Shown here piece after piece: positions 25,167-57,225 of a stretch of 64,000 bases of DNA. The notes under the pieces were generated by a model, which had not been told where the DNA came from, ran no database searches, and saw nothing but the letters and a program-made list of their open reading frames with translations. The stretch is from Amyelois transitella. Taxonomy: Eukaryota > Arthropoda > Insecta > Lepidoptera > Pyralidae. Where the stretch lies: assembly GCF_032362555.1 (NCBI RefSeq), contig NC_083530.1, forward strand, positions 2,014,001 through 2,078,000. Direction: 5' to 3'. Made by a program: the position numbers and the translations under genes. How positions within the stretch are numbered: the first letter of the stretch is position 1; each line of letters begins with the position of its first letter.

Positions 25167-28100
25167 TTAATAGCTAAAGTTGATCTTCCACGGCTTAGCC
25201 ATGCTCGCACCTGGTTTTCTGATCACAAGCACGTCGTTACCTGAAGGTTAAAAAAATATTATAAACAACTTTAACACTTGTATAATATTCGTATATATTT
25301 GTAAGATATAACTAATCTGAAAATGTCAAAAGAAACTAAACGAAAAAATGACACCGTCAAATTGAAATTAACAACTTTTTTCCGAGACTGTTGGCTCTGT
25401 CTACTCCGCAAGGGATATGAACGTGACTACAGGGTGACATTTAGAACAACTGCATCCTTTTAAACATAGACTATACCCATGCTTCTGAGCCGTTTGAGCC
25501 TATTTTTATTTAAATTAAACGTCATCATTTTCACATTTAAAAACCCTCAAAAACTACGTCACATGCTTTATTAAAGACCAATACTACAAAAAGAAATTAA
25601 AACTAAACATGTTAATAAATGTCTGAAAAATAAATTATTTTTCTTGTATCAAGATCAAGTAAAGTACAGAGTTGTCGAGATCGCTCAGCTGAATGAATTG
25701 TGTCGTTGACCTCTGAATCTCACGCGTCGCTTTTCCGCCGACCTTTTATTTTTTTTCGTACTTTCTAAAATATGAACCGATATTTCTCTTTTAACGTTTT
25801 TAAATATCCTTTAGATGAGTACACTTAACAGTTAAATTTGTGCAGTTGAATTAAAAGTCACCCTGTATATGCATGTATGTACGTGGACATTTCAACAACA
25901 TACCTTTGTGCAGCGTCATGAGCAGAGAAGTCTGCTTGTCGCCCTGTGCGAGTTTAGCGGTCTTCAGCGGCTCAAAATATAATTAATAACTTTTCTCCGA
26001 GACTGTTAACTCTGTCTACCCCGCAAGGGATATAGACGTGACCATATGTATGTACCTTTGTGCAGCGTCATGAGCTGAGAAGTCTGCTTGTCGCCCTGTG
26101 CGAGTTTAGCTGTCTTCGGCGACTCAAAATATAATTAACTACCTTTTCTCCGAGACTGTTAACTCTGTCTACCCCGCAAGGGATATAGACGTGACCATAT
26201 GTATGTACCTTTGTGCAGCGTCATGAGCAGCGAAGTCTGCTTGTCGCCCTGTGTGAGTTTAGCGGTCTTCGGCGGCTCAAAATATAATTAATAACTTTTC
26301 TCCGAGACTGTTAACTCTGTCTACCCCGCAAGGGATATAGACGTGACCATATGTATGTACCTTTGTGCAGCGTCATGAGCAGAGAAGTCTGCTTGTCGCC
26401 CTGTGCGAGTTTAGCTGTCTTCGGCGACTCAAAATATAATTAACTACCTTTTCTCCGAGACTGTTAACTCTGTCTACCCCGCAAGGGATATAGACGTGAC
26501 CATATGTATGTACCTTTGTGCAGCGTCATGAGCAGCGAAGTCTGCTTGTCGCCCTGTGTGAGTTTAGCTGTCTTCGGCGGCTCAAAATATAATTAACAAC
26601 TTTTCTCCGAGACTGTTAACTCTGTCTACCCCGCAAGGGATATAGACGTGACCATATGTATGTACCTTTGTGCAGCGTCATGAGCAGAGAAGTCTGCTTG
26701 TCGCCCTGTGTGAGTTTAGCTGTCTTCGGCGGCTCAAAATATAATTAACAACTTTTCTCCGAGACTGTTAACTCTGTCTACCCCGCAAGGGATATAGACG
26801 TGACCATATGTATGTACCTTTGTGCAGCGTCATGAGCAGCGAAGTCTGCTTGTCGCCCTGTGTGAGTTTGGCTGTCTTCGGCGGCGCCTTGATGCCGGCT
26901 ATCACGATCCTCTCCACCCACGAGCGCGTGGCGTACGACGCGTTCTCATTGATGAAACTGTAATTGGTGATGTGATTTATATATATATATATATACATAT
27001 ATTATAAATATATATATATTTATGCCGTGTGGTTCCCGGCACCAATAAAAAAAAGAATGGGACCACTCCATCTCCTTCCCATGGATGTCGTAAAAGGCGA
27101 CTAAGGGATAGGCTTACAAACTTGGGATTCCTTTTTAGGCGATGGGCTAGCAAACTGTCACTATTTGAATCTCAGTTCTATCATTAAGCCAAATAGCTGA
27201 ACGTGGCCATTCAGTCCTTTCAAGACTGTTGGCTCTGTCTACCCCGCAATATAGACGTGAACATATGTATGTATGTATGTGTATATATTTATGTACAGTC
27301 AACCGCATTACAAGTGATCCTTCTTTAATTAGACAGAGAATTCTGTATAATTAGATAGAGCCTTTATATGCTGCTTATCCATACTAATATTATAAAGCTG
27401 AAGAGTTTGTTTGTTTGTTTGAACGTGCTAATCTCAGGAACTACTGGTTGGAATTGAAAAAATATTTTTGCGTTGAATATACCATTTATGGAGGGAGGCT
27501 TTAGGCTATATAACATCACGCTGCAACTATTAGGAGCGAAGAAATAATGGAATATGTGAAAAAAACGGAAAAATTATTCATCCTTGAGGGATTCAGTAAT
27601 GCCCAAAATAACTATTTTACGCGGACGAAGTTGCGGGCACAGCTAGTTTATAATATAATTAGTTGCGATTGTTATAAATATTTTTGTTTAAGAAAAAATA
27701 ATAGGACCACTCCATCTCCTTCCCATGCATGACGTAAAAGGCGACTAAGAGATATGCTTATAAACTTGGGATTCTTTAGGCGATGGGCTAGCAACCTGTC
27801 ACTATTTAAATCTCAATTCAAGCCGAATAGCTGAACGTGGCCTATCAGTCTTTTCAAAACTGTAGGCTCCGTCTACCCCGCAAGGGATATAGACGTCATT
27901 ATATGTATGCATGTGAAAAAACTCAACATTCATAATATTAATTGCGATTGTTGTTTAATATTTTTTTTTAACTCACGTGTAACTCATAATCTCCGGGGAG
28001 TACTCCAATTTGGCGTATATATATTTGTTGTTCCTGTACTCGTACGTTTCACCGTCGTCAATGTACAGCGTGCCAGAGGCGGTGTTCTGAAATTAAAATG

Positions 28101-28382
28101 ATTATAACATTTAATTCATTAAATACACATAGGTACTTAGATATAATCACGTGTGTGAATGCCTGTGTGAGTGAGTGCGTGATTGTGTGTGTGAGTGCGT
28201 GAGTGTGTGTTAGTGAGTGTGTGCGTGCGTGTTAAGTGTGTGTGTGTAAGTGCGTGAGTGTGCGTAAGTGCTAGAGTGTGTGCGTGGGTGTGTTCATGTG
28301 TATGTGAGTGTGTTAGTGCTAGCGTGCGTGCGTGTATGTGTGTGTATGTGTGTGGGTGTGTGTATGTGTGTGCGTGAGTGTG

Positions 28383-28458
<76 letters not shown>

Positions 28459-31400
28459 TGTGTATGTGTGTGCGTGAGTGTGTTTTTGTGTGTGTGCGTG
28501 TGTGTATGTGAGTGCGTGAGTGTGTTTTTGTGTGTGTGTATGTGTGTGCGTGTGTGCCGTACGTACGTTGGCGTCCAGGGCCACGACGAGCGTGTAGGGG
28601 TCGGCGGCCATGAGCGCGGAGGCGCGCCGCACGCGCTCCTTGCGCGGGAGCACGGTGCCGCCGCGCTGGTACACCGGGATCTACGACGAATATTAATAAT
28701 AGGTACATTTTTATAATCAATTTGGCAAACAAATATCTATTATAATTAAAGATCGGAATAGGTAGATTGAATTGGGGTCAATGAACTGAAACGTATATAT
28801 TAATATGGACATGCCTCCGTCCGGGATTGCGGGATTTGTAAATTATTAAGATTTTTTCCGGAATTTTTACAAGTGGGATGAAGAATATATTAGTGGTAGC
28901 TGTTTTCCCCCGACTTCGTTCACGTAAATTGTAGTCCTATGTTACCCGCGGACAATGTAGTTTACTGTAAGTGTAATTACTGAAATGGAACTTATCCATG
29001 TTATGCTTTCTATTGTAATTCATGATGCAAGTACATAAAATCAATCTACCTATTCCGATCTCTGATTATAATACATACATACATAAAATCACGCCTCTTT
29101 CCCGGAGGGGTGGGCAGAGACTACCCCTTTCCACTTGCCACGATCTCTGCATATTTCCTTCGCTTCATCCACATTCATAACTCTCTTCATGCAAGCTCGG
29201 CGGTTTCGGGTACTTTTGACCTGACCCTTTACCAGGACGTACTTCAATTCAAATACAATGTAAAAATCGTTAGTGATAATAATAATAAATAAGGTAATAA
29301 GGTAATAAATAGTGAATAAATAAATAAAGATCCATATGCCTCACCTTAGACATAGGTGTCTCCTGATTGATATACCCGTTGGCTTGGTGAGCTTGGTACG
29401 TGTCCACGTCGTACCAGAGAGTGCGGGTTCGAGACCCGGGCAGGTACACTTTCACCGAGCTCACTCCTTGCTCTAGCACCGGCCGGACTAGTAGTTTGTC
29501 ACCTGTGGAAGGAATTTTAAGTTGGTATTTACACATCTTTTTCCCGGCGGGGTAGGCAGAGACTATTTATGTGGACGGATGGAATACGATTATAAGATTT
29601 TTTTTTGTTATTTTGTGATAAATGTGAATGTTCTTCAACTTGTTTGTTTCTGTAAGTAACTTCTTTGTTTCTTCTTTGTTACTCATATTATACTTGTGAT
29701 TTGTCCTTTTATTTAAAATGAAGACTGTCAAGATTTTATTTTATTATACATATAAGAATTACTTGCCAAACACTTTAAGAGGTGTACTACTACCGTTGTA
29801 TTATTGGCGTAAATAAATCAGTTACACTTTCACTTCCAACTCCACTCACAGACTGAACAGCCAAGGTGACACAACACATTTTTGTTTTCAACAATTTTCT
29901 TACTTTTTTTCAATCTTGTAAACCTGTCATTACCTCCAATCAATCTCATCCGAAAAGACCATAGACTCACCAAGCAAATACTCGTTGTCAATGGTGAAAA
30001 CTGCAGTTTCATCTGGATATTCCTGGAACAATGGCCGCATTACGGGAAGGCCGTCGCGGGAATGCTCGAAAAATAGTGTGTACCTGTAATTAAGACATAC
30101 AGTTAGATATCTTAATAAAAAAATATACGACGATGACAGCCTCTGTAGCGCAGCGGTAGTACGCTTGTCTGTGACACCGGAGGTCCCGGGTTCGAATCCC
30201 GGTCAGGGCATGATGAGAAACGAACTTTCTCTGATTGGCCTGGGTCTTGGATGTTTATCTATATAAGTATTTATTATAAAATATAGCACCTTTGAGTTGG
30301 TATCTCGTAACACAAGTCTCGAACTTACTTCGAGGCTAACTCAATCTGTGTAATTTGTCCCGTATATATTTATTTATTTATTTACTATATTTCCGAAACA
30401 AATTATACAGATTGGTTAGTTCGAAACTTGTTTCACGAGATACTAACTCAACGATACGATATTTAATAGTAAAGACTTATATTAATTAACATTCAAGACC
30501 CAGGCCAATCAGAAAAAGTTCGTTTCTGATCATGCCCTGGCCTTCTTTGTTGCAAAGACACTTTGCGACTTTTACATAAGAATAACATATTGTAACTAAG
30601 ACATTAAGCAACAAAATCAACGTAACTTTTTTGCTAAGACACTCTGCGATTACATTTCTTTGAGAAGTCTATGGAGCTAAGACATTATGCGGGTAACACG
30701 GTGCTACTTTTTTGCTACAAAGACACTTTGCGACTTTTTTGCTACAAAGACACTTTGCGACTTTTTTATAACGGAGTCATTCATATTGTGACTAAGACAT
30801 TCTGCGACTTTTTTTGCGATAACTCACCAGAAGTCCAGCAGTGCGTATCTTCTTCTATATGCGTCTCGGATCAGAGCTAAAGTGTCAGCGTCATACAGCC
30901 AAGGCTCGCGGCGTTTCGTTTCAATGTGAGAGTGAGACATTGCGACTTATTTCAAGTAAGTCATTTTGCGACTAAAGATATTTTGCCGTGACTATGTTCC
31001 GACTAAGGCACTTTGCGACTAAATTTCGTGGTAAAGTCTGTGCGATTTTTTTGCTGCCTAGTCACATTGCGACTAAGACATTCTGCGACTTTTTTGCGAT
31101 TACTCACCAGAAGTCCAGCAGTGCGTATCTCCTTCTATTGGCGTCTCGGATCAGAGCTAAAGTGTCAGCGTCATACAGCCACGGCTCGCGGCGTTTCGTT
31201 TCAATGTGAGAGTAAGAAACTGGGACTTATTTCAATCAAGACATTTTGCGACTCAGATATTTTGCCGTGACTATGTTCCGACTAAGGCACTTTGCGACTA
31301 AACGTGGTAAATTCTATGCAGCAAGACATTATGCAAATAAAACAGTGCGACTTTTTTGCCGCCAAGACATTTTGCGACTTTTTTTTGCGATTACTTACCA

Positions 31401-34400
31401 GAAGTCCAGCAGTGCGTATCTTCGTCTATTGGCGTCTCGGATCAGAGCTAAAGTATCAGCGTCATACAGCCACGGCTCGCGGCGTTTCGTTTCAATGTGA
31501 GAGTGAGCGCGGAAGAATGATTGATATGCACCGGCCTGTGAAAAAAATAATTATGAATAGTTTGTGGTTCCCGGCACCAATAGGTACACAAAAAGAAATA
31601 GGACCACTCCATATCTCCATGTCTTTCAGTCTTTTCAAGACTGTTGCCTACTCCACAAGAAAAAAAATCTTCTTCGACGGATGTGTTGCGTCATCTCGAC
31701 TGTTCCACCTATTCAACTATATTTTTGACATTTTATTAGAATGTAGAGTAATGAATGTGGTCAAACGAAAGGATGTATGAAGGGATCGTAGCTAGTGCTA
31801 TATTGTATGTGACTTGCAATAACATACAATAATCTTTTGACTTTGAAGTATATTTTTAATTAGAAAGATATTTGACCTCGAGGTGGCATTTGAACGTGAT
31901 AACCTATTAAGCTGGTAACACGTTATTTAGGGTGACCCTGGACCTTGGTGTGACCTTTGACTTCAGATTGACCTTTGACCTCGAATTGACCTTTGACCTT
32001 TACGACACAGACCTGGTACCACCTGGTCATCAGCTCGCTCTCGGGGTACTTGAAGAATCCGCCGACGTCCGAGCCGCAGAAACTCATCCCAGCGATCGCC
32101 ATAGACAAGCACATCGACACGGAAGCGGAAAGGAATCCCCATTCGGCCATGTTGTCGCCGGTCCATATTGCCGCGTATCTGTGGGAGAACAGTTCTAATT
32201 TTATTATTTTTGATTTGATTTTTACATGTTCATACATACATGAAATCACGGTGCCATGTGGTTCCCGGCACCAATAGAAAAAAAAATAGGACCACTCCAT
32301 ATATTTCCCATGGATGTCGTGAAGGGCGACTAAGGGATAGGCTAATAAACTTGGGATTCTTCTTTTAGGCGATAGGCTAGCAAACTATCACTATTTGAGT
32401 CTCAATTTCATCATTAAGCCGAACAGTTGAACGTGGCATATCAGTCTTTTCGAGACTGTTGACGTATAATCACGTCTATATCCCTTGCGGCGTAGACAGA
32501 GCCAACAGTCTTGTAAAGACTGATAGGCCACGTTCAGCTGTTTGGCTTTAAGATAGAATTGAGATTCAAATAGCGACAGGTTGCTAGCCCATCGCGTAAA
32601 AGAAGAATCCCAAATTTATAAGCCTACCCCTTAGTCGCCTTTTACGACATCCATGGGAAAGAGATGGAGTCGTCCTATTCTTTTTTCTATTGGTGCCAGG
32701 AACCACACGGCAAATATGTATGTAACTAGATATATTTACCTCTGAGAGCCAGCGAAACCCGCTCTGGTCAGCACAAACGGTCTATATTTCCCGTTGTCTC
32801 TGTCCAACATGCCTTGATGAGTAGCTCTGATGTAATATAGACCATATTCATTATGGATGTGTCTGTGAACAAGTGAATTACATTAAGTTAGTATGTTAAA
32901 ATAACAATAAATACATAATAATAATATTATACAATCTACAATTTTAATGTTATCTATACATATATCTATAAAACAGTAAAAATATTTTGCCTGTACATTT
33001 AGTATTTTGGACTGAAATAGACAGAGGGACACTTAGAATGAATAATAGAAAGCAAAAACTTTTTTTTTTTTAATTTTTTGTCTGTCTGTCTGTCTGTATG
33101 AATGATCAAGCTTATCTCCGAAAATACTTAAATTCAAATTCAAAATTTTTATTCATTATTATAGAATACTATATATCGCTTAATAATTGTCAAAACGTAT
33201 GGTTTAACAACATTGGTTGACGTCAAATAAATTACTTAAAAACTAAGTTCACTGCCGCTTCCAGGGCGTCAGTGCAGAAGAAGCGGTAACAAACTGCACT
33301 GCAGCATTTTCTTCAACAACGTCAACTTTACAATATTATTACTATATGTATATACTGAACTGATTTACTTAAAACTTTCACCAATTGCATTGTTATTAAT
33401 TATATTTCTATTACCTGTGCTCCCAATAAGCGGCAGGCCCTTCCGAGCCGCTCTCGGATTCTTTGTAATGGCGGTTATCTTTTGGCATTGTTATCTCCGG
33501 GCCGTTGAATACCTGTGAATTATCCATATATGCATATACACGTATAGTCACGTCTATATCCCCTTGCGGGGTAGACAGAGCCAACAACATGTTTAATCAA
33601 CCTAAGCTGTTAAGCGAAATGATAGAATCCATATTACTTATACAAAAAAATAAAAATTTGTATTTTTGCATGATTGTAACGTATAAACTTAATTTTGACG
33701 GCCTCTGTGGCGCAGCGGTAATACGCTTGTCTGTGACACCGGAGGTCCCGGGTTCGAATCCCGGCCAGGGCATGATGAGAAACGAACTTTCTCTGATTGG
33801 TCTGGGTCTTGAATGTTTATCTATCTAAGTATTTATTATAAAATAAAATATAGTATCGTTGAGTTAGTATCTCGTAACACAAGTCTCGAACTTACTTCGA
33901 GGCTAACTCAATCTGTGTAATTTGTCCAAAAAAAAATATATATAGTGTACATAGGGCGCTTGTCTGAGACATTGGTGGTTCCGGGTTCCATTCCGGGACA
34001 TGGCATAATAATAAACGAACCTTCTCCGATTGGCCGGGGTCTTGGATGTTTAACTATATAATTATTTATTACAAAATAGATATAATGTCGTTGAGTTAGT
34101 ATCTCGTAACACAAGTCTCGAACTTACTCCAAGGTTAACTCAATCTGTGTAATTAATTTGTCCCGTATATATTTATATTATTTATTTATAAATATTGGTG
34201 TCGTGTGGTTCCCAGCACCAATATAAAAGAATAGGATCACTCCATCTCTTTCCCATGGATGTCGTAAAAGGCTTAATTATATAATATAGTATCGTTGAGT
34301 TAGTATCTCGTAACACAAGTCACTTACTTACTTCGGGGCTAACTCAATCAGTGTAATTTGTCCCGTATATATTTATTACATACATACATACATACGGTCA

Positions 34401-37400
34401 CGTCAATATCCCTTGCGGGGTAGACAGAGCTAACAGTCTTGTAAAGACTAACAGGCCACGTTCAGCTGTTTGGCTTTAAGATAGAATTGAGATTCAAATA
34501 GTGACAGGTTGCTAGCCCATCGCCTAAAAGAAGAATCCCAAGTTTATAAGCCTATTTATTTATACTATATATACTATTATTAGTATATATTTATTTATTT
34601 TATAGAACGAGACTCACGCTTGGCTCGTTCATGTCGTTCCAAATGTGCACGTCTTTGCTGGTGCCGACGAATTTGTCGTAGCGGTACTGTTCCGAGAGGT
34701 ACTGACTCACGAGCGGGTTCAAAAAGTCCAAATAGGAACTTGAACCGGGCCAGCACCAACCTGTGGATTAATACATTATACATATAATGTAATTATCTAT
34801 ACGTTTATAAATTTATATATCTATATATATATAAAAGCGAAAAACACTCACTTAGGAATCACAATATCTCGAAATCTAATGAGCCAATAAAGATGAAATT
34901 TGACAGGAAGGTAGATTTTAACTAGGAGGGATCCACTTAGAGAAGATTTTTGGAAATTCTATTCCTAAGGGGGTGAAATAGGGGTTGCAAGTTTGTATGA
35001 AACTTTGTCATTTTTAGTGTGGGTTACGCGGACGAAGTCGCGGGCAACAGCTAGTTATATATATATAGTTTTATTTTCTCGACCTCCGAGTCGGTTTCTT
35101 GTTGAATTCCCGTCCTGAAGCTGGAGAGAGGAGAAGAGGGAGATTCGGCGTCCCCTATATATATACATATGTCGTGGCCATATCATAGAATTGATCATTT
35201 CATGAAATACTCGGCCATTTCATGATCTGTTCACATTTCATGAAATGGCCAACTATCTATTGACCACATCATGATGTGGCTTGACCAGATCATTGATAAG
35301 AAACAGTTTGACGATTTGATCAACGAAACGCGCAACTATTTCATGAAATGGCCAAGCTTGTTTGATCATATCGTAAAATAGTTACCGTAATTACCGACAG
35401 AGGCGCTAGAATCGCTTTGTTATATACATACATACATACATAAAATCGCTTCATCCACATTCATAACTCTCTTCATGCAAGCTCGGCGGTTTCGGGTACT
35501 CTCGACCTGACCCTTTACCAGGACGTCCTTAATTTGATCAAGATACGTTCGTCTAGGTCTTCTTTTAACGGCTTCACCGATTCTCATGAAATTTTGTGAG
35601 CGTATTGAGTAGGTCTGAGAATCGGCCAACATCTATTTTTCATACCCCTTAGTGAAAAGGGTTGAAACTAGAAATTACTTAGGACCACTCCATCTCTCTC
35701 TCTAGAAAAATCCCAAATTTATAACCCTATCCTTTAGTCACCTTTTACGACATCCATGGGAACGAGACGGGAGTGGTCCCTTTCTCTTTTTTTTTTTAAA
35801 TTAGTGCCGGGATCCACACGGCTCATTAAATATAAACTTACCTGTTATGAATATGTTTATGTCACGTCACTATTGTTGTGTAACATCACTATGCGAATGA
35901 AGATGGCGTCCTAACCGGATTGAGGGCTAGCCATTACTCGCGGCATACTTGTATTTCTTACTTACAACTCAAGTTACCTAATTCAAGTCTTAATTATTTA
36001 TATGAATCCAAGACCAACACATTACCGTCATAATCTTTTCCATCTTTATTCTTGACATAGTACCCTCTCTCCGTGGCCTCTTCGTGTAGAAAGTAGCCGG
36101 CCTCGCGTTTTATATGAGGGTCTATGATCACGATCAGCTTACGACCTTTGGCGGTGAGGTTGGAGACCATTTCGCTTGGATGTGGGAATTTCTCTAAATC
36201 CCATGTGAAGTACCTGTAACAATGAGGATTTTTGAGATTTTCGTAAATATATCGATCTTCTTCAGCGGAGTTGCAGGATTTGAGTCAAATTCAAAATTTT
36301 TATTCATTACATGGGACATAATTATAGTACACTGTAACTACATCAATCAATAATATTCCGAGATGCAGTTCCCCAAGGACTCTCACTTAGTCCTTTAACA
36401 ATTATAATACTAATGTTTTCATAATAATCGATACTATTCCACATATCTGGAATTTCCCAGGGGTCATTACTAGGTCCATTATACATAATTATAGTAACTT
36501 CATCAATCAATATTATTCCGAGCTGCAGTTCCCCAAGGACTCACACTTAGTCCTTTAACAATTATAATACTAATGTTTTCATAATAATCGATACTATTCC
36601 ATATATCTGGAATTTCCCAGGGGTCATTACTAGGTCCATTATACATAATTATAGTAACTTCATCAATCAATATTATTCCGAGCTGCAGTTCCCCAAGGAC
36701 TCACACTTAGTCCTTTAACAATTATAATACTAATGTTTTCATAATAATCGATACTATTCCACATATCTGGAATTTCCCAGGGGTCATTACTAGGTCCATT
36801 ATACATAATTATAGTAACTTCATCAATCAATATTATTCCGAGCTGCAGTTCCCCAAGGACTCACACTTAGTCCTTTAACAATTATAATACTAATGTTTTC
36901 ATAATAATCGATACTATTCCACATATCTGGAATTTCCCAGGGGTCATTACTAGGTCCATTATACATAATTATAGTAACTTCATCAATCAATATTATTCCG
37001 AGCTGCAGTTCCCCAAGGACTCACACTTAGTCCTTTAACAATTATAATACTAATGTTTTCATAATAATCGATACTATTCCATATATCTGGAGTTCCACAA
37101 GGGTCAATACTGGGTCCATTAAACATTATAATACTTTTTTATACATATATATAACACGTCTATATCCCTTGCGGGGTGGACAGAGCCGACAGTCTGAAAA
37201 ATGACTAATAGGCCACGTTCGGCTGCTTGGCTTAATGATAGAATTGAGATTCAAATAGTGACAGGTTGCTAGCCTGTCGCCTAAACAAAGAATCCCAAGT
37301 TTATAAGCCTATCCTTTAGTCGCCTTTTACGACATCCACCGGAAATAGATGGAGTGGTCCTATTCTTTTTCCTATTGGTGCCGGCAACCACACGGCACTT

Positions 37401-38401
37401 TTACTTTTTTATATCAATCAATATATTTTTAACACTCACTTTTTAGTGTTAGTATACTCGATGTCAAGCCAGATGGAATCGGCGGGTATGTCGTGGGTGT
37501 CGAAACCTTCGTTCACAGACGCCACATCGGCTTCGTCCACGTAGTTCCATCGGGACTGGTGGTAGGCCAAGGAGAATTTCTGTGAAACAAAATGGCCGAA
37601 TTAGGAATACCGAATGAAAAAAGGCAATGATTCTGGTGACTACAACATAAATCGTTCGGATTGTCTGAATGTAGCAACCCTGAATAAAATGGGACATTCA
37701 TATGATCACGTCTATCAGGCTTGCGGGGTAGACAGAGTCAGCAGCCTTCAAAGGCCACGTTCAGATAATAGGCTTTATGATAGAATTGAGATTCAAATTA
37801 TGACAGGTTGCTAGCCCATCGCCTAAAATAAGAATCCCATGTCGCTTTTTACGACAAACATGTATCTGTAATACATAATATACATACACACATACATAAA
37901 ATCACGTCTATATCCCTTACGGGGTAGACAGAGCCAACAGTCTTATCTGAATATACTATGTATCTGAAATATATGTATCTTTTTTCATATAAACCAACAT
38001 TCTGTGGAACTGGAGTCGCCCAAGGGTCGTTACTTGGTCCTTTACACCTTCATTTTTATTATTTGGTTAAGGAAGAAAATAATTAACAATAACGTTGAAA
38101 TAATCAATATAAAAATATATATAAAATAAATAAATATGCCGTGTGGTTCCCGGCACCAATTAAAAAAAGAATAGGACCCCTCCATCTCGTTCCCATGGAA
38201 GTCGTGAATGGCGACTAAGGAATAGGCTCATGAACTTGGAATTCTTCTTTTAGGCGATGGGCTAGCAACCTGTCACTATTTGAATCTCAATTCCATCATA
38301 AAGCCAAACAGGTGAACGTGGCCTATCAGTCATTTCAATACTGTTGGCTCTGTCTACCCCGCAACGGATATAGACGTGCTTATATGTATGTATGTATGTA
38401 C

Positions 38402-38432
<31 letters not shown>

Positions 38433-41400
38433 TGTATGTATGTTGAAATAAGGGTTGTTTTGTTACTCACAGGCGGTAAGGGCGCGACTCCAGTGAGAGC
38501 GGTGTACTGCCTGAACACGTCTTTAGGTTTGTCTCCCAGCAACACGAACACGTCCAATACACCGGATTCGCTCATGAAACTGAAACGTGTATACATTTTA
38601 TTAATGGGTTTATCAAAAATCTTATTAAATCTTCTTTCTCCTGGCATCTTTCTCTCTGTCTACCCCGCAAAAGATATAGACGTGACTATATGTATGTAGT
38701 AGCTGTGCCCGCGACTTCGTCCGCGTGGAATAGTTATTTTGGGCATCATTGAAGCCCTCAAGGCTGAATAATTTTCCCCGATTTTTGTAACATTTTCCAT
38801 TATTTCATCGCTCCTAAAAGTTGCAGCGTGATGTTATATAGCCTTTAACCTTCCTAGATAAATAAATCTATTCAACACAAAAAGAATTTTTCAACTCGAA
38901 CCAGCAGTTTCTGAGATTAGTGCGTTCAAACAAACAAACAAACACTTCAGCTTTATAATATTAGTACTATACATAAAATCACGCCTCTTTCCCGGAGGGG
39001 AAAGCAGAGACTACCTCATTCCACTTGCCACAATCTCTGCATACTTCCTTCGCTTCATCCACATTCATAACTCTCTTCATGCAAGCTCGGCGGTTTCGTG
39101 TACTTTTGACTTGACCCTTTACCATTAGTACTATAGATTTGCCGTGTGGTTCCCGGCACCAATGAAAAAAAGAATAGGACCACTCCATCTCTTTCCCATG
39201 GATGTCGTAAAAGGCGACTAAGGGATAGGCTAACAAACTTGGGATACTACTTCTAGGCGATGGGCTAGCCAACCCGTCACTATTTGAATCTCAATTCTAT
39301 CATTAAGCCTAACAAAAGCTGAACGTGGCCATTCAGTCTTTTCGAGACTGTTGGCTCTGTCTACCCCGCAAGGGATATGGACGTGACCGTATGTAGGTAC
39401 TATAGATGACAATAAGAGATGCCTCACCGCGCGTCCACTCTCTGTTTCTGACCGCCGGTCACCAAGTAGACGACAGACGAGACAACGTTGCTGTCTGCGT
39501 AGTTGACTCTGTCTACCCCGCATGACTATGTATGTAGGTACTATAGATGACAATAAGAGATGTCTCACCGCGCGTCCACTCTCTGTTTCTGACCGCCGGT
39601 CACCAAGTAGACGACAGACGAGACAACGTTGCTGTCTGCGTAGTTGACTCTGTCTACCCCGCATGACTATGTATGTAGGTACTATAGATGACAATAAGAG
39701 ATGCCTCACCGCGCGTCCACTCTCTGTTTCTGACCGCCGGTGACCAAGTAGACGACAGACGAGACAACGTTGCTGTCTGCGTAGTTGACAACGTCCACCC
39801 CGCATGGGATATAGACGTGACCGTATGTATGTATGTACTATAGATGATCTCTATTCTATTCTATCTAGATCTATTCTATTCTATTCTAAGTATAATTTAA
39901 TATTGTGAAGTTGACGTTGTTGAAGAAAATGCTGCAGTGCAGTTTGTTACCGCTTCTTCTGCACTGACGCCTTGGAAGCGGCAGTAAACTTAGTTTTTAA
40001 GTAATTTATTTGACGTCAACCAATGTTGTTAAACCATACGACAATTATTAAGCGATATAAAAGTATCCTATAATAATGAATAAAAATTTTGAATTTTTGA
40101 ATTTTGATAATAAGAGTTGCCTTACCGCGCGTCCACTCTCTGTTTCTGACCGCCGGTCACCAAGTTGACGAGGGACGAGACAACGTTGCTGTCTGCGTAG
40201 TTGACTCTGTCTACCCCGCATGACTATGTATGTAGGTACTATAGATGACAATAAGAGATGCCTCACCGCGCGTCCACTCTCTGTTTCTGACCGCCGGTCA
40301 CCAAGTTGACGAGGGACGAGACAACGTTGCTGTCTGCGTAGTTGACTCTGTCTACCCCGCATGACTATGTATGTAGGTACTATAGATGACAATAAGAGAT
40401 GCCTCACCGCGCGTCCACTCTCTGTTTCTGACCGCCGGTCACCAAGTTGACGAGGGACGAGACAACGTTGCTGTCTGCGTAGTTGACTCTGTCTACCCCG
40501 CATGACTATGTATGTAGGTACTATAGATGACAATAAGAGATGCCTCACCGCGCGTCCACTCTCTGTTTCTGACCGCCGGTCACCAAGTTGACGAGGGACG
40601 AGACAACGTTGCTGTCTGCGTAGTTGACTCTGTCTACCCCGCATGACTATGTATGTAGGTACTATAGATGACAATAAGAGATGCCTCACCGCGCGTCCAC
40701 TCTCTGTTTCTGACCGCCGGTCACCAAGTTGACGAGGGACGAGACAACGTTGCTGTCTGCGTAGTTGACTCTGTCTACCCCGCATGACTATGTATGTAGG
40801 TACTATAGATGACAATAAGAGATGCCTCACCGCGCGTCCACTCTCTGTTTCTGACCGCCGGTCACCAAGTTGACGAGGGACGAGACAACGTTGCTGTCTG
40901 CGTAGTTGACTCTGTCTACCCCGCATGACTATGTATGTAGGTACTATAGATGACAATAAGAGATGCCTCACCGCGCGTCCACTCTCTGTTTCTGACCGCC
41001 GGTGACCAAGTTGACGAGGGACGAGACAACGTTGCTGTCTGCGTAGTTGACTCTGTCTACCCCGCATGGAATATGTATGTATGTACTATAGATGACAATA
41101 AGAGATGCCTCACCGCGCGTCCACTCTCTGTTTCTGACCGCCGGTGACCAAGTTGACGAGGGACGAGACAACGTCGCTGTCTGCGTAGTTGACTCTGTCT
41201 ATCCCGCATGACTATGTATGTAGGTACTATAGATGACAATAAGAGATGTCTCACCGTGCGTCCACTCTCTGTTGCTGACCGCCGGTCACCAAGTTGACGA
41301 GGGACGAGACAACGTCGCTGTCTGCGTAGTTGACTCTGTCTACCCCGCATGACTATGTATGTAGGTACTATAGATGACAATAAGAGATGCCTCACCGCGC

Positions 41401-44400
41401 GTCCACTCTCTGTTTCCGACCGCCGGTCACCAAGTTGACGAGGGACGAGACAACGTCGCTGTCTGCGTAGTTGACTCTGTCTACCCCGCATGACTATGTA
41501 TGTAGGTACTATAGATGACAATAAGAGATGCCTCACCGCGCGTCCACTCTCTGTTTCTGACCGCCGGTCACCAAGTTGACGAGGGACGAGACAACGTTGC
41601 TGTCTGCGTAGTTGACAACATCCACCCAGGTTTCGGCGGCGTTGTGCCAAAAAACGCCGACCGTGCGTTTCGTTCTAAAAAAAAAGAAGGAATTATTTTA
41701 GACAAATTATTCAATTCGATACTTATTCAATGATAGGTACTATATTTTATTAAAAGTACTTATATAGTTATGAATGTGGATGAAGCGAAGGAAATATGCA
41801 GAGATCGTGGCAAGTGGAAAGAGGTAGTCTCTGCCTACCCCTCCGGGAAAGAGGCGTGATTTTAGGTATGTATGTATATAGATAAACACCCAAGACCCCC
41901 AGGCCAATCAGAAAAAGTTATATTCTCATCATGCCCTGACCGGGATTCGAACCCGGGACCTCCGGCGTCACAGACAAGCCTACTACAGCTGCTCCACCGC
42001 CAGTTCGAAATGTCCCATAACATACATACATATAGTCACGTCTATATCCCTTGCGGGGTAGACAGAGCAAATAATCTTGAAAAAACTGTTAGGCCACTTT
42101 CAGCTTTTTGGCTCGATGATAAAATTGAGATTCAAATAACGACAGGTTGCTAGACCATCGCCTGAAAGAAGAATCCCAAGTTTATAAGCCCATCCCTTAG
42201 TCGCCATTTACGACATCCATGACAACGAGATACACAGATGGAGTGGTCCTATTCTTTTTTTTTTATTTTTATTTCATCATATTTATCTTTATTTTTATTT
42301 CATTGGTGCCGGGAACCACACGGCACTCGCCCCATACCATACAAACTTCCATTCAAGACGGCCTCTGTGGCGCAGCGGTTGTACGCTTGTCTGTGACACC
42401 GGAGGTCCCGGGTTCGAATCCCAGCCAGGGCATGATGAGAAAAGAACTTTTTCTGATTGGCCTGGGTCTTGGATGTTTATGTATATAAGTATTTATTATA
42501 AAATATAGTATCGTTGAGTTAGTATCACGTAACACAAGTGTCGAACTTACTTCGAGGCTAACTCAATCAGTGTAATTTGTCCCGTATATATTTATATAAT
42601 TTGACTCACCCATGAGCGTACAAAACGGGAATGCCAGCGTACAAAGCCATACGGCTGTCCAGCTCAAACTCGAACACGTCCAAATTAAAGAGGCGGTAGG
42701 GCTCCCCCGATGTAGTGGTGGCCAAGTTCACCTTGTCCGTGTGCTCCGGTATACCTGGCAAAGATATATATATATATATATATAAATTATTCATCCTTGA
42801 GGCATCCTTCAATGATGCTCAGGATAACTATTCCACGCGAACAAAGTCGCGGCCACAGCTAGTATATATACATATATATATTTATATATATGTATTTATA
42901 CTAGACTTCGTCCGCGTGGAATATTTATTTTGGGCATCATTGAAGGATACTTCAAGGATGAATAATTTTTCCCATTTTTTTTCATATTTTCCATGATTTC
43001 TTTGCTCCTTATAGTTGCAGCGTGATGATAAATAGCTTAAAGCCTTCCTACCGAACCAGTAGTTCCTGAGATTAGCGCATTCAAACCAACAAACAAACTC
43101 TTCAGCTTAAAATTTAAATTATTCATCCTTGAGGGCTTCAATGTTGCCCAAAATATTCCACGCGAACTTAGTCGCGGGCACAGCTAGTTTATAATATAAG
43201 CAATGGATAACTTTTATTTCTCTTTGACAAAGACGGTATGTACAGTAAGAATATAATAAACTCACCATAAGCCTGTTCTGCATCAGGAAACGAGAAATCC
43301 ATCGATATGGCCTCGTTTCCTCGTGGCTTGCTGTCATGATGAGACTTGAAGTTCTCCCCCCAAGTGCCTTCTTCATCCTGAAGACAAATATAAACAATCA
43401 AGTCTATATTCCGCCGTGTGGTTCCCGGCACCAATACAAAAAAGAATTTGACGTTGTTGAAGAAAATGCTGCAGTGCAGTTTGTTACCGCTTCTTCTGCA
43501 CTGACGCCTTGGAAGCGGCAGTAAACTTAGTTTCAAGTAATTTATTTGACGTCAACCAATGTTGTGAAACCAAACGTTTTGACAATTATTAAGCGATATG
43601 TAGTATCCTATAATAGTGAATAAAAATTTTGAATTTGAATAGGACCACTCCATATCTTTCCCATGGATGTCGTAAAAGGCGACTAAGGGCTAGGCTTACA
43701 AACTTGGGATTCGTTTTGACGTGATTATATGTATTTATGTATGTTTAAACACTGAAGAAGTTAGAAAATAGCATATGTACACGTGTTAATGAGTCATTAC
43801 TGTTATTGAATACTGACATTAATTAGAACTTATGTTTGATACCAACTTGAACTACTACAAAACGGAGGCGACCTCACGTACATAATTAAGTTTAGATATT
43901 ATACTAACAATGAACTTTAGATAAACATATTTATCTTTCTTATGGATGTCGTAAAAGTACGACAAAGGGATAGGCTTATAAACTTGGCATTGCCCTTGCA
44001 GACGATGGGCTAGCAACCTGTCACTATTTCAATCTCAATTCTATCATTAATCTTTTAGATTTTGTGATTCCCGGCACCAATATAAAAAAGAATAGAACCA
44101 CTCCATCTCTCTCCCATGGATAACGTAAAAGATGATTAAGGGATAGGATTATAAACTTGGGATTTCTCATGTAGGCGATGTGCTACCAACCTGTCACTAT
44201 TTGAATCTTAATTCTATTATTAAGCCATACAGCCGAACGGGGCCTTTCAGTCTTTTCGAGACTGTTGGCTCTGTCTACCCTGTAAGGGATAAAGAAGTGA
44301 CGTATTTGTATGTTAAAAAAAAATAATACAATAGTGACAGGTTGCTAGCGTATCGCCAAAAAAAGAATTCAAATTCATTTTCCCTTAGTCGCGTTTTACG

Positions 44401-47266
44401 TCATTCATGTGAAAGATATGGAGTGCAGAGTCCTATCCTAGTGGCCGGGAACTACACGGCACTTTAAAACTTAAACATTTGTTTACTTTTAATAAGGTAT
44501 CATAGGCATTTAACGCCCGCTTAATTTCAATTCAATATATTATTGAATAAAATGATTGGATTAAAAAACTGTTTAGAAAAATAGTTTTATTGTCAAAAAA
44601 AGAATACAAAAAACTAACACATATATGTTATCAGTCATATAAGATTGTGGCGCCATCTCTACGCCACTCGTCAACAACATCAAATCACACAACAACTGTC
44701 AATCATCTCGAAGAAATCGACGCGCTCAGCCAATAGCAGCGAAGAACCCAAATCGCGATTTCAGAGATTTCAAGGATTGGAGCTATATATACAACCTCCG
44801 ACACAACATCGTCGGAGCCGCGGTTCCCCAGGCATAGCACCTAGCCTGGCGGAAGATCTTCCCTTTGGTGGCGGTCGAGCCGAATCATCGCTCCCGCTAC
44901 ATTGGTGACCCCGACGTGATTGGAAGCAACCTTCTCCATCATCATCAACTCTCCAATCCTCAGTATCACTCCTCACTCTGCAAGCAGTCTCACAGCAAGC
45001 CAGCAACTGGGTATCGCAGCAGGTCCATCGCAGCCAACGCAACGAGCTTCCTGGTCCTGTCTCCACCCGCACTCACTCTCATCGACTTCAGCGACCGACG
45101 CATCTACCGCAGCCCACGCCTGGATCTCTTCGACGGCCGCTCTTCTCTCCAGCGTGGCAGCTCTGCACGATTTCTCCCGGCGCCAACAAGTCGACTTCGC
45201 TCTCTACTGTCTCGACTCACCGCAGACTACGAGCAACGCAACGGCTCACTCCTGACTCACAAGGACTTCGAGCAACTTCCGACTCACTGGAAGACAACTG
45301 GCACTTGCAAGCTACAACTGAAGCACAGATTGCACAGCAAGATCAAGACTTCAGACCTCCGGTCTTGGGGGGGAGTACTGTGGCGCCATCTCTACGCCAC
45401 TCGTCAACAACATCAAATCACACAACAACTGTCAATCATCTCGAAGAAATCGACGCGCTCAGCCAATAGCAGCGAAGAACCCAAATCGCGATTTCAGAGA
45501 TTTCAAGGATTGGAGCTATATATACAACCTCCGACACAACATCGTCGGAGCCGCGGTTCCCCAGGCATAGCACCTAGCCTGGCGGAAGATCTTCCCTTTG
45601 GTGGCGGTCGAGCCGAATCATCGCTCCCGCTACAAGATTATGAAAACAAAGACTTTCTGAATAGCCTGTCATTGGCGTTACTGAACATACAGTTTTTAGT
45701 AACGCCCATATATTTATTTACGTAATATCTTAATAAACACATATATTTCGACTTAGAGCCGTACAAAACTTAAAAGTATATTATATTATCTTTTTTTAGA
45801 TAGCATCATAATTATCATTATATGAACTAGAAATACTAAAATATTATAATTTTATAACACTTTCAAACATCTCGTAATTTCTACTTAATCATCTATAACA
45901 AAAATATTTCACTTTTAACATGTTCTATAACAATAGAAAATCAATTTTTAAAGGATTTTAATAAAAAATCAGATTATTATTAAAATGCCTATTGGGCGCT
46001 ATTCGCCGTAGGTGGCTAATGACGCCCCAAAACAGTACGTCAATTAACGCCCTGAAATGAAGTAAATTAATATTATAGCTTAAACATAAATGAGATCAGT
46101 AATCAACTTATATATCCTACGGACTATTCAGAGTATCAGTAATCAGTCTTACAATCCTTTGAAATTTTAATACTTTTTCTATTTATTCGCAATTTGAACA
46201 AATGAAGTTGTTACGTTTTGTGAGGCCAACACACTCCTTATGGTACCACTTAGGATAATAGCGCCCATACAGGCTATTGACGCCCAAACCTCACGTCACG
46301 GGGCGTTATTACCCGAATAGCACCTTGTACCTAGTTCTCATATTTTCACACATAATTACAAACAAATCAATCAAATTGTCAATGAAATATGAATAAAGAT
46401 ATCTAAATAGAACGCTTATCACAAAATTAGACATGTAAATTACAGAAAATGAATTAAAACTTACGGATTTGTCGGAGTATTTTTTATAAGAACAGCGTGC
46501 ACTGCCGGCGTCCTTCAAGTTCGGTTCACAACTGAGCGACCGATGGCCTGAGCGGCGCCGCGTCGCGTCCGCGCGTTCCTATTGGTTTATTCTATGTGTG
46601 CATGAAGTATAACGTAACTCGTGCGGCATTATCTCCGATTTTTAGCATTCGGGCGTTTTTACACATTGGGCGTTAAATGCCATACCTACCTTATGTTACA
46701 TAATAAAAATCGGTCATCATAATCCGCTGACCTTGCAGCTATATCTTAAGTTACAGATAAACGCGTGTCATAGTATGTCAATGATCTTAACAACTATCTC
46801 TACGTGACATATCTGATATGTTAGAACCCCCTCTATTGAGACATTATCTTGTTTTGATCACATAGGTATAGATGGTTTAAATCTATATAATCTTTTATCT
46901 ATTATATTGTTTATTGCGTTCTTAAAATTGCTATTCAAGAAACGTACATACATACCCATAATCTGATTAAATCCTTTACGGGGTAGACAGAGCCAACAGT
47001 GTCAAAAAGACCACCTTTAGCTGTACGGCTTAATGACGAAATTGATATTAAAATAATGCCTAGAACCACACAGTACTTACTATAATATAAGCGTGAATAT
47101 ATACACATACACATATAATCACGTCCTTTTCACTAACGGGGTAGACAGAGTCAACAGACACGAAAAGACTGAAATGGCACGTTGAGCTATACTTATACAA
47201 ATGCGGAAGTAAGTTTTTCTTCTCTTCACGCTTCATCAACTGAATTAGGATCATTTCATGTATATG

Positions 47267-47301
<35 letters not shown>

Positions 47302-50300
47302 TATATAACTAGCTGTGCCCGCGACTTAGTCCGCATGGAATAGTTATTTTGGGCATCATTGAAGCCCTCAAAGGTGAATAATTTTCTCCGTTTTTTGTTT
47401 CACATTTTCCATTATTTCTTCGCTCCTAATAGTTGCAGCGTGATGTTATAAAGCCTAAAGCCTTCCTCAATAAATGGTCTATTCAACACAAAAATAATTT
47501 TACAATTCGATTCAGTAGTTCCTGAGATTAGCGCGTTCAAACAAACAAACAAACAAACTCTTCAGCTTTATAATATCTGTAATAGTTGTGTAATTGTAAG
47601 TGGCGCTAAATTCGAGCGGGTGAAGTTGCCGGTAAAAGCTATTGGATGTGTTAATAAATAGTTGTGAAGTTGACGTTGTTGAAGAAAATGCTGCAGTGCA
47701 GTTTGTTACCGCTTCTTCTGCACTGACGCCTTGGAAGCGGCAGTGAACTTAGTTTTAAGTAATTTATTTGACGTCAACCAAAGTTGTGGAACCAAAAGAT
47801 TTGACAATTATTAAGCGATATGAAGTGTCCTAAAATAATGAACAAAAATGTTGTATTATGAATTAAAAAAAATATTTTGAAATATAGTAAAATTTCTCAC
47901 CACTTCAACAACATTCCCGCTCTCATCATCGACCGCTTCCCTCTTCTTTCTTAACGGTTCGATGATCAACTGAGAGTTCTCGTTCATCACCAAGGCTACA
48001 TCACCGCTCTTGTCATAAAACTCAACCTTTAGTGGGTCAGCGGTGATCACCACTTTGTGCCCTTGTGAGTTGGTTGCGATTACTCTGTTGTCGTCTTTGG
48101 AGACAAGGTTTAATCTGTGAAAAATACATATATACATATATAATCATGTCTATATCACATACGGGGTTCACAGAGCCAACTGCCTTGAAAAGACTGGAAT
48201 GGGCAAGTTTACTTATGTTAATAAATAAATACAGGGTGAAATTTAAAACAACTGCATCCTTTTAAACATAGACTATACCCATGCTTCTGAGCCGTTTGAG
48301 CCTATTTTTATTCAATGTGAAAATGATGTCGTTTAACGACATCATTTTCACATTTAAAAAACCCTCAAAAACTACGTCACTCTGAATCTTACGCATCGCT
48401 TTTCCGCCGGCCGGGGTGATATGACGTATTCATATTCTGAAATATGAACCGATATTTTTCTTTTAACGTTTTTAAATATCCTTTAGATGAGTACACTTAA
48501 CAGTTAAATTTATGCAGTTGAATTAAAAGTCACCCTGTATACACGGGACAAATTACACATATTGAGTTAGCCTCGAAGTCTTGTGTTACACTATGAGATA
48601 CAAACCCAACGATACAACGATTAACATCCAAGACTCAGGCCAATCAGAGAAAGTCCGTTTCTCATCATGCCCTGACCGGAATTAAAACACAGGATTCTGG
48701 ACATTGAAAATACTTAAAAACAAATCAGCAATTTGCTAATAAACTCTAATCACAACTTTATACTTTAAATGTTATTGACGGAATGAACAATAAACATGAT
48801 TATATAGATCTCATGGGATTCACTATTTGAATCTCAATTCTATCATTAGCCAAATAGCTGAAAGTGGCCATTCAGTCTTTTCAAGACTGTTAGCTCTTTC
48901 TACCCCACAAGATATATAGTTGTGACCATGTACATATGTGTATGTGACGCCTATTAACAAAAGGCAGCTTAATATGACGTCACACCTGTGTTTCTTGTGA
49001 AAATCTAATTCAATTCAATAAAATATAAAGACATTTAAGATAAAAAGATAAAGATAAAAATATTTATGCCACTGCAATACATCCACATATATAAAATTGC
49101 ATACTTAAATGGTAATTTTCAGCATAAGTAGTATTACAGGATTTCGCAAAAAACATTGATTAACATCAAAGACTTCCTCACTAGGAAAGCCTGTGTCAAG
49201 AATCAAAATTAACAATAATTAAGAGAGACAAACAGTAAAGTTTACCGAGCCAGATAAATTTATTTATTTATTCATTAGGAATAACAAACAGCTATATTAT
49301 AAAGACATATTAAAAGTTATTATATGCTAAAGTAGTAACAATACATATAGCCCACACTGTTATTCACAGACTAGTAAACAATATTGGTAAATTATGTAAT
49401 TATTGATGATTACACTTTAAAAGTGCCGTGTGGTTCCCGGCACCAATACAAAAAAGAATAGGACCACTCCATCTCTTTCCCATGGATGTCGTAAAAGGCG
49501 ACTAAGGGATGGGCTTACAAACTTGGGATTCTTCTATTAGGCGATGGGCTAGCAATCTGTCACTATTTGAATCTCAATTCTATCATTAAGCCAAATAGCT
49601 GAATATGGCCATTCAGGCTTATCAAGACTGTTGGCTCTGTCTACCCCCACATTGGCTCTGTCTACCCCCACAAGGGATATAGACGTGACCATATGTATGT
49701 ACACTTTAAAAGTTTAGTTTCATTGTTTATCCACTCACTTATCAGGGACAGGGGTGTCCTTCAAAGCCAGCTGGGGCACATAACGTGGATACAGAGGTTC
49801 CGCCTCGTCCATCTCCACTCGGAAAGTGCCATCTTGGATTGCTGACAGTTTGAGGACATACTTGTGCTGAAAACATAATATTATCAATCAAATATTATCA
49901 ATATAAATCATTAATTTTATACTTATATACTAAGTTTTCGTTTTATGTATGCAATGTGCATTCTACCACAATTTAGATTTAAGACAACTATAATTGTAAA
50001 TTTTGCAGAAAGCAGTAAATGTTGCAGTGTAGTTTGTTCCGCCGCTTCTACTACACATGTGCTTTGGAAGTGGAAGTAGATATAATTGGATTTAAGTTAT
50101 GTTGACTTGACTTGAGGTGTTACCTCGTATTCAATTTTGGAACTAAATCTATTCTATTTTATACTCTGGGTGTGGGTGCCATGTGGCCATGTGTGTGGTG
50201 GTAAGCCAATCCCTTAGCCACCTTTTACAACATCCATGGGAAAGAGATAGAGTGTAATTGTAAACAAAAATACAAGACTTCTTTATTTTATATTCTTAAT

Positions 50301-51639: not shown

Positions 51640-52049
51640 AAAGATAAATCCACAAATAGGCCTAAATATAAACCTAACATTTATTTACAAAAATGTCCCG
51701 GCAGATCGGTAAAGTGCCTAGAAGGCTGGCAGCATTGCCACGTTGAATGGCAATGCTTATCTTTTGAGCGAGATAAGGACCAGCCCTCTCGTCACAAGTA
51801 ATTTCGACAATTTTTCGGGCGATGACGTCATATAATTGGGCAGAAGGTCTCCATGGCCCCAGAGTCTCAACCCCAAATGGCTCAAATATGTTGTTATTTC
51901 TAATAACCGCATATTTACACCGTTTGAGGTCTTCCGCAGCTGAGCCGGCCTTGGACGCGGTTGTTTGGAGGTGGACTGTGCCAAGGCGTCCACACAAGTG
52001 GCATCCCAGATAAGGGGACGTCCCAATTTCGAAGGCACGAGGTTCATAC
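51640..52049 (-). pseudogene. Second copy of the degenerate multicopy protein fragment
   Basis: It parallels 16290-16760 over most of its length (GGCAGCATTGCCACGTTGAA block), encoding GRPLIWDATCVD, GVETLGPWR and KISIAIQRGN pieces on the minus strand. It is cut at 52049 by the LTR retrotransposon. The remainder, including CACGAGCCAAACC, appears just beyond the far LTR at about 58158-58200. Confidence 0.55.
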
Positions 52050-52983
52050 TGTGGCTACCAGCATACTTACCATCAAGTACCAACATACTTACCAACAAGC
52101 TTACCTTACCGAATAACAAGAACAACAGTTACCTTCACAATATTTACCATTTACAATTACAATACCTTACCAGGATATAATAGATATAATACATATATAT
52201 ATATAAGAGATGAATAAAACAAATCAAGCACTTTAATATCATGCCGACTTCGTTGCCCAGAAACCAGAAGAAGCTAGTTCTGAAAAGAACTGTTTGTGAG
52301 CGCGTGCACATGGACATGCCACACATCGTGCATCAGCAGTTCTTCCAGGCAGCATCAGCATCTTCACACGCCAATTCTTCACACTGCATAATCGTCTATC
52401 GGATCTCCGTCCGAAACAACAAACTCAAGAGTTCGACGCACACACTGCACTTCGCGAGAGCATCACGAGCGCGACCTCACGCCGCAAGTTCAAATTCACA
52501 CTGAGGCGGGGAGCAAGCAGCAAGACGGTTTTATACGCAAGCAAGTTTGACCTAACAAACATCGCGTGCACACCGCACGTAGCGCCCTCGGCGCGCCTGC
52601 GGCCGCACCGGGCGTCACAGAAACTCAAGCTCGACACGTGTAGCGGAAACGAGACGGAGCTATCCAGACTCAGGAGACAGCAATACAAAATTCTAAGAAA
52701 TCTATGCAAATCCATTTTATTATCAACAAAAACTTTTCGATAGATTTCTACTTGTAAATACGATCACACCATTGGCTATAATTCGATATTTCTGATTTGT
52801 TAAAAATAATCTCTCTTCTTCATTGGTAATAATTCCGTATTTATGATTCGTCCATGCCTTTTCCTTTGTAAATAGTTTTATATAAATATGTCTCAATTTT
52901 GTAAATAAACCATTCCATTCTCACCTTCTGAAACGGAGTATTACTTCACTACCTACAAACCCTGGAGAATCTCTCTCTCCAAA
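52050..52983 (+). repeat. 5' LTR
   Basis: It starts TGTGGCTACCAGC and ends CTCTCTCTCCAAA. A TATA box (TATATATAAGAGATG, about 52194) marks likely transcription start in the first quarter, and AATAAA near 52905 is the polyadenylation signal. The U3 is therefore short and R-U5 long. Confidence 0.9.
52241..52504 (+). CDS. Short open frame inside the LTR (87 codons), function unknown
   Basis: An ATG about 35 bases after the TATA box opens an 87-codon frame (start MPTSLPRNQKKLVLKRT, Ser/His/Ala-rich end) that is intact in both LTRs. It resembles no protein I know. Because the LTRs were identical at insertion, conservation between them is not evidence for selection. Confidence 0.2.
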   Translation: MPTSLPRNQKKLVLKRTVCERVHMDMPHIVHQQFFQAASASSHANSSHCIIVYRISVRNNKLKSSTHTLHFARASRARPHAASSNSH

Positions 52984-53002
52984 TTGGTGACCTCCGACTG
53001 AA
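52984..53002 (+). other. Primer binding site, tRNA-Trp type
   Basis: TTGGTGACCTCCGACTG follows the LTR directly. The first eight bases from TGG match the complement of the tRNA-Trp 3' end; the rest matches with one extra T. The TRIM at 44903 carries the exact form. Confidence 0.7.
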
Positions 53003-53112
53003 CAACAACAAGAAGAAGAATCCCTGCTCGTCGGCCCAGCGGAAAAATTCCTAAAGAAAAAATTTCAACGCGGAATCTCTGCCCGACTGCAACAAAAAAG
53101 AAAGGAATCATC

Positions 53113-57215: not shown

Positions 57216-57225
57216 GGGGGAGTAC
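57214..57225 (+). other. Polypurine tract
   Basis: GAGGGGGAGTAC directly precedes the 3' LTR and primes plus-strand synthesis. The TRIM has nearly the same tract in the same position. Confidence 0.8.

Follow-up and report, generated by a model that had tools for sequence, protein, structure and literature searches.

The locus raises the question of why the ends of certain exons, together with their splice donors, recur in tandem within the introns that follow them. The window, a 64,000-nucleotide stretch of Amyelois transitella DNA, contains the gene for the alpha subunit of glucosidase II (neutral alpha-glucosidase AB; 25167-50728, minus strand), for which 20 exons and a product of 927 amino acids were derived from an exon model combined with PDB and Pfam comparisons. 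The model has GT at 19/19 donors and AG at 19/19 acceptors, and its single open frame spans all 927 amino acids. The best PDB match of the product was the mammalian neutral alpha-glucosidase AB 8d43 (E 8.7e-280, residues 6-924 aligned), and this full-length homology places it in family GH31. GH31 domains were found above cut-off by Pfam (PF01055, E 2.5e-109; PF13802; PF21365), and a match to PF17137 fell below its own cut-off. The window also contains a C2H2 zinc-finger protein encoded in a single long frame (18660-20582, plus strand) and an LTR retrotransposon with gag-pol-like frames (52047-57379), in which a 157-base stretch starting at 52047 recurs without change 5176 bp downstream. Intron 3 of the glucosidase gene holds two identical 256-bp direct repeats (44646-44901 and 45379-45634, starts 733 bp apart), a pair that resembles a small terminal-repeat element.

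In order to locate copies of coding sequence, each of the 20 exons was compared by BLAST with the whole window (E up to 1e-3). The comparison returned 21 off-site matches, 13 of exon 6, two of exon 14 and six of exon 19, each of which extends to the exon's final base, directly ahead of the donor. No off-site match was found in the window at this threshold for the remaining 17 exons, and no acceptor-side copy for any of the 20. A preliminary description of the locus had stated that arrays at exons 6, 14 and 19 start within the exon, take in the donor and some intron, and lie on the donor side only. Both statements were confirmed: the repeated unit starts in the exon, includes the GT donor and ends in the intron, and 21/21 spare copies reach the donor and keep its GT. 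None of the copies carries the acceptor of its exon, and the arrays are accordingly not whole-exon tandem duplications. With the live copy counted, exon end and donor are present 14 times at exon 6, three times at exon 14 and seven times at exon 19. The presence of exon-end copies in the following introns at 3/20 exons is both real and odd.

Tandem Repeats Finder, run with periods up to 500, identified five arrays with a unit of at least 100 bp, every one of them within the glucosidase gene: 25901-26885 (152 bp), 30794-31504 (280 bp), 33724-34154 (233 bp), 36334-37133 (160 bp) and 39389-41616 (141 bp). An exon end is included in three of the five. The arrays at 33724-34154 and 36334-37133 are purely intronic, which counts against the process proposed earlier. 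One counter-example is the array in intron 8 (36334-37133, minus strand, five units of 160 bp), which begins 17 bp from the 3' end of a copy of SINE A, the retroposon family found in two of the exon-end arrays. By eye, its unit resembles two diverged halves of about 80 bp, with a single relative near 38040-37980. Chance was modelled by placing the five unit lengths of at least 100 bp uniformly in the gene, where approximately 10% of placements per unit fall on the donor side and 10% on the acceptor side. Under uniform placement in this one gene, the probability of at least three of five donor-side arrays was 0.009 (0.015 when each array was reduced to roughly one unit), and that of at least three of five at either boundary was 0.058 (0.088 after this reduction). 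These values overstate the surprise, since the case was chosen post hoc for its striking look. Three donor-side arrays against zero acceptor-side arrays give p=0.25 (two-sided).

The most extensive array follows exon 6 (live copy 41537-41674, minus strand, from exon model and BLAST), the final 80 bp of which are repeated. It comprises 14 units of 141 or 142 bp (39389-41616, minus strand), each composed of exon end, donor, target-site sequence and SINE A 3' end, with 98% identity between units according to Tandem Repeats Finder. Copy starts span 41614 to 39505 at a spacing of 141 or 142 bp, with one step of 416 bp that arises because another repeat element with a TAGAA-type repeat sits within copy 11 and splits it (39846-40117, ends approximate, no strand assigned). 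The last copy passes into a full-length SINE A (39140-39395, plus strand, antisense to the gene) that bounds the array at its far end and has an 11-bp target duplication, GTACTATAGAT, on both sides, as produced by target-primed reverse transcription. The donor-side copy of this duplication is present in 14/14 units. The SINE A insertion therefore came first at exon 6 and the duplication later.

The exon-6 breakpoints fall in the last ~50 bp of SINE A, and two join types were read from the alignment of copies. At 12/13 joins the SINE sequence ...GACAGAG meets exon TCAACTACG, and at the remaining one (39800) ...GCGGGGT meets exon GGA.GTTGTCAAC with four shared bases, GGGT. The CAAC match reported earlier for this junction is thus present at 12/13 joins, but amounts strictly to one base, or to six with one mismatch. 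With equal base frequencies assumed, the chance of at least four matching bases at one join is 0.016. Copies 12-14 have three codon differences from the live exon in common, and copies 6-11 have none.

At exon 19 (live copy 26818-26957, minus strand, from exon model and BLAST; donor AAG/GTACAT) the final 68 bp are repeated. The array (25901-26885, minus strand, 152/153-bp unit) contains seven exon ends with donor, six of which are followed by a SINE A remnant, and a two-unit period of 305 bp fits it better than one of 152 bp (98% vs 96%). In the seventh copy, 21 bp of intron lead to a MITE with inverted ends ACAGGGTGAC (25429-25866, minus strand) and, past it, to a SINE A remnant at 25431-25378; the MITE lies inside the SINE tail of this unit. 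Remnant and ~20 bp of intron (25357-25431, minus strand) complete the seventh unit, with a 5' truncation like that of the other six (model positions 195 and 197). Furthermore, with the MITE set aside, copy 6 and the copy-7 region are alike at 144/160 aligned bases. A target duplication of ~70 bp, considered as the origin of this array, is ruled out by the SINE remnant that continues the seventh unit. A second copy of the MITE, also with inverted ends ACAGGGTGAC, lies at 48538-48230 (far end placed by eye).

Copies 1-6 at exon 19 are without 21 bp that copy 7 has between two GTA, a difference that most simply arose through loss. It is for this reason that the live donor reads AAG/GTACAT and that of the last copy AAG/GTATGT. 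On a small matrix built from the gene's own 19 donors, the live donor scored 5.6 bits, second lowest of the 19, and the last copy 7.6 bits. The earlier view that the parent copy is left whole consequently fails at exon 19, where the live donor was weakened by the change from GTATGT to GTACAT. The proposed GCCGCC junction homology was rejected as well: TTTGA meets GCCGCC in a blunt join, with TTTGACGG as the downstream source sequence, and the breakpoint lies ~20 bp past the SINE remnant.

Exon 14 (live copy 31399-31535, minus strand, from exon model and BLAST) has its final 109 bp present in three copies (30635-31507, minus strand, lower end by eye; 30794-31504 by Tandem Repeats Finder), spaced 291 and then 280 bp apart. 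SINE A was not found in this unit, in agreement with the preliminary description, which had placed SINE A sequence in the units at exons 6 and 19 only. The join shares two bases, CT. The exon parts of the copies are 95-96% alike, with 4-5 of 109 positions differing and no gaps, and the intron parts, cut by eye, are a degenerate AAGTCGCAAAATGTCTT-type repeat. Differences in the intron parts amount to 12/151 aligned bases for copies 1 and 2, 34/159 for copies 1 and 3, and 24/160 for copies 2 and 3, with 51, 57 and 44 gap columns, respectively. When the non-coding copies 2 and 3 are compared, the exon part differs at 5/109 positions vs 24/160 for the intron part (p=0.008).

SINE A covers 17% of the glucosidase gene vs 3.4% of the remaining window. 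It did not serve as a taxonomic handle: an exact 34-base pattern from it had no match in collections of viral and genome contigs. A copy lies within 150 bp downstream of 7/19 donors (8/19 with exon 6 counted by its terminal unit) and within 150 bp upstream of 9/19 acceptors. Arrays occur at 2/8 SINE-flanked donors vs 1/11 other donors (p=0.55). In this gene, the idea that SINE A is tied to donor-side arrays was thus not upheld. Of the ten array edges, two are no more than 20 bp from the 3' end of a SINE A copy (P=0.03). This is a hint of a role for the SINE and speaks for the process put forward earlier, in which retroposons landing just after exons seed local duplication. Among eight near-full SINE A copies, target duplications of 11-12 bp were found at three (27023, 37150 and 39140, that at 27023 being AT-only and of low complexity) and one of 6 bp at a fourth; none was found at the other four. 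The SINE A after exon 2 contains a 21-bp tandem duplication (49631-49672) at the SINE position that corresponds to the exon-6 join, and a run of 15 TATG units (38383-38443) follows the SINE A downstream of exon 7. Three tRNA-His-like sequences (30139-30210, 33701-33772 and 42361-42432; all three reported by ARAGORN and two by Rfam) resemble the heads of a further tRNA-derived SINE family.

Read-through at the live donor would reach a stop 1 nt downstream at exon 6, 1 nt at exon 14 and 47 nt at exon 19, and use of a later donor would therefore truncate the protein. Spare donors are identical to the live one in 10/13 cases at exon 6 and 5/6 at exon 19, and at exon 14 both (2/2) score higher than the live donor. 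An acceptor-like CTCTTATTGTCATCTATAG is present in 13/14 exon-6 units with an own-matrix score of 3.5, a value below which 4/19 real acceptors fall when left out of the matrix. Of 12 exon-6 pseudo-exons predicted from these sites, 11 hold a stop and one is open and in frame. This hypothetical pseudo-exon of 114 nt (40972-41085, minus strand), with CTCTTATTGTCATCTATAG before it and a donor after it, derives from the sole 142-bp exon-6 unit and could possibly serve as a usable exon. That one case excepted, the reading of the copies as usable extra exons was rejected, given the missing exon acceptors and the stops.

Distinct codon differences among the copies were synonymous in 11/22 cases, against the 24% that random point changes would give (p=0.008), a count tallied by hand from changes that are not fully independent and with no mutation bias allowed for. 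By exon, the synonymous changes were 3/8 at exon 6, 5/7 at exon 14 and 3/7 at exon 19. The excess would fit live exons that went on changing under constraint on the protein or that repeatedly converted their copies.

Ordinary partial tandem duplication with little junction homology, followed by unequal exchange and filtered by selection, probably explains all three arrays. One or two such duplications per array, with later expansion between direct repeats, would suffice, and the three arrays would represent minisatellite-like expansions of independent events. In each, the left breakpoint would lie inside the exon and the right one in the next intron; in two of the three, the latter would fall within the 3' end of a pre-existing SINE or a little beyond it. 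At exon 6, where the order of events could be read directly, SINE A inserted antisense ~30 bp past the donor. End joining or template switching with a strict homology of 0-4 bp at the joins would then have produced the tandem copy of exon end, donor and intron start that the anatomy shows. Such direct repeats may subsequently grow by unequal exchange, which would yield near-identical units and the two-unit period at exon 19. Selection would retain the donor-side layout: the left copy keeps its connection to the acceptor of the exon, so that the mRNA is predicted to be unchanged, and the spare copies, having a donor without a proper acceptor and a stop on read-through, would be removed with the intron. 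Acceptor-side duplications would bring a new 3' splice site, make a change of the mRNA likelier and presumably be purged more often. The earlier suggestion that donor-only arrays are tolerated accords with this, as copies without a proper acceptor should in principle be harmless. No special seeding process would be needed, as the selection filter can account for the layout.

Several observations support this explanation. The 927-amino-acid frame is intact with all splice sites kept; the 11-bp target duplication is in 14/14 exon-6 units, which have two join types; and at exon 19 copies 6 and 7 match, with a common SINE truncation and a 305-bp period. Retention of GT in 21/21 spare donors, early read-through stops and the synonymous excess are also in its favour. 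Against it stand the donor-side excess (P 0.009-0.015 under uniform placement) and the prediction from chance plus selection of a purely intronic majority, seen here in only 2/5 arrays. Furthermore, the contrast between exon and intron parts at exon 14 calls for an additional cause, be it gene conversion, a function of some kind, or an intron repeat that is slippery and decays faster.

A SINE A beside an exon could itself be the trigger, if its 3' end were fragile and gave rise to duplications again and again. At exon 6 the SINE predates the duplication and two separate joins fall in its last ~50 bp; the exon-2 SINE A (49631-49672) carries its own 21-bp duplication and that at exon 7 its TATG run (38383-38443); and the start of the intron-8 array, 17 bp away from a SINE A 3' end, is among the 2/10 edges within 20 bp (P=0.03). 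This trigger is nevertheless rather unlikely, given that SINE A is absent from the exon-14 unit, that 6/8 SINE-flanked donors and 9/9 SINE-flanked acceptors are array-free (association p=0.55), that inclusion of a SINE in an array is cheap where SINE A covers 17% of the gene, and that the exon-19 join is blunt and ~20 bp beyond the remnant. The retroposon seeding of the preliminary description has support at exon 6, in that the SINE came first and the breakpoints lie near its end, and none at exon 14, and the proposed process as a whole is partly supported. An extended version, in which fragile SINE A 3' ends repeatedly seed arrays over exon ends in this lineage and the acceptor-less donors are tolerated as a nursery for cassette exons, appears improbable; if it were true, the array copies would be one acceptor mutation away from new cassette exons, with 41085-40972 already open. 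That the exon end is instead a very long target duplication of a retroposon insertion, amplified later, is suggested by the resemblance of the exon-19 array to alternating exon ends and SINEs closed by an exon end and ordinary intron (E-S-E-S-...-E). It is hardly credible when the seventh copy reaches a matching SINE remnant past 21 bp of intron and a MITE, and when the target duplication at exon 6 is only 11 bp.

The spare copies might also act on the mRNA, as decoy donors or as poison or new exons that tune splicing. GT is kept in 21/21 spare donors, many of which are identical to or stronger than the live donor, although recent copies are expected to keep GT even without selection. Similarly, the acceptor-like site in 13/14 exon-6 units scores above 4/19 real acceptors at 3.5 but is weak, and 1/12 pseudo-exons is in frame and stop-free but 11/12 contain a stop. 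Judged from these splice-site predictions, a role in the mRNA is quite unlikely. An assembly artefact, in which a single exon end was inflated by looped or misplaced reads, could be suspected from the high unit identity at exon 6 (98%). It is very unlikely, however, as the units vary by substitutions, a single 142-bp unit, the copy-11 insertion, the MITE and the 305-bp period, and the intron parts of the exon-14 copies are strongly diverged. Partial tandem duplication under a selection filter thus remains the preferred explanation. If arrays on the donor side also occur in other genes, intronic minisatellites, decoy splice donors and raw material for new exons would have an overlooked source in exon ends, and the ratio of donor to acceptor arrays would gauge the filtering of structural mutations by splicing. 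Otherwise, the locus is a striking local pile-up in one SINE-rich gene.

Among the matches listed, which included few subscription journals, no title or abstract opening named arrays of exon ends on the donor side. Related phenomena are already known: partial tandem duplication of exons, duplications across exon boundaries, and minisatellites associated with SINEs. A boundary duplication on the acceptor side in potato RdRp shows that such events can alter splicing and lead to intron gain (PMC4974935). A tandem unit spanning an exon/intron boundary is common to both cases; the potato duplication is on the acceptor side, with one extra copy and changed splicing, whereas the present arrays are on the donor side, with as many as 13 additional copies and an mRNA predicted to be unaltered. 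Fly populations commonly carry partial duplications with exon sequence in them (624/1901, cited in PMC2891723). The intronization of exonic tandem duplications in Drosophila likewise involves partial exon copying with premature stops in the copied part, but there a copied AG/GY motif makes a new intron, and here the copies remain within an existing one (PMC2891723). SINE-associated minisatellites are similar in being tandem repeats from or beside SINE ends; among the matches listed their units are TE sequence, while approximately half of the unit here is host exon and donor (reviewed in PMC9659126). Tandem exon duplication also copies exon sequence locally, yet its copies are usable as alternatives and those described here are only 3' exon parts with a donor (PMC9013439). 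Finally, lepidopteran tRNA-type SINEs such as SfSE1, with its (ATGT)n tail, have in common with SINE A a length of 250-300 bp, a tail of the ATGT type and numerous intronic copies, a likeness at the level of description (PMC8010984).
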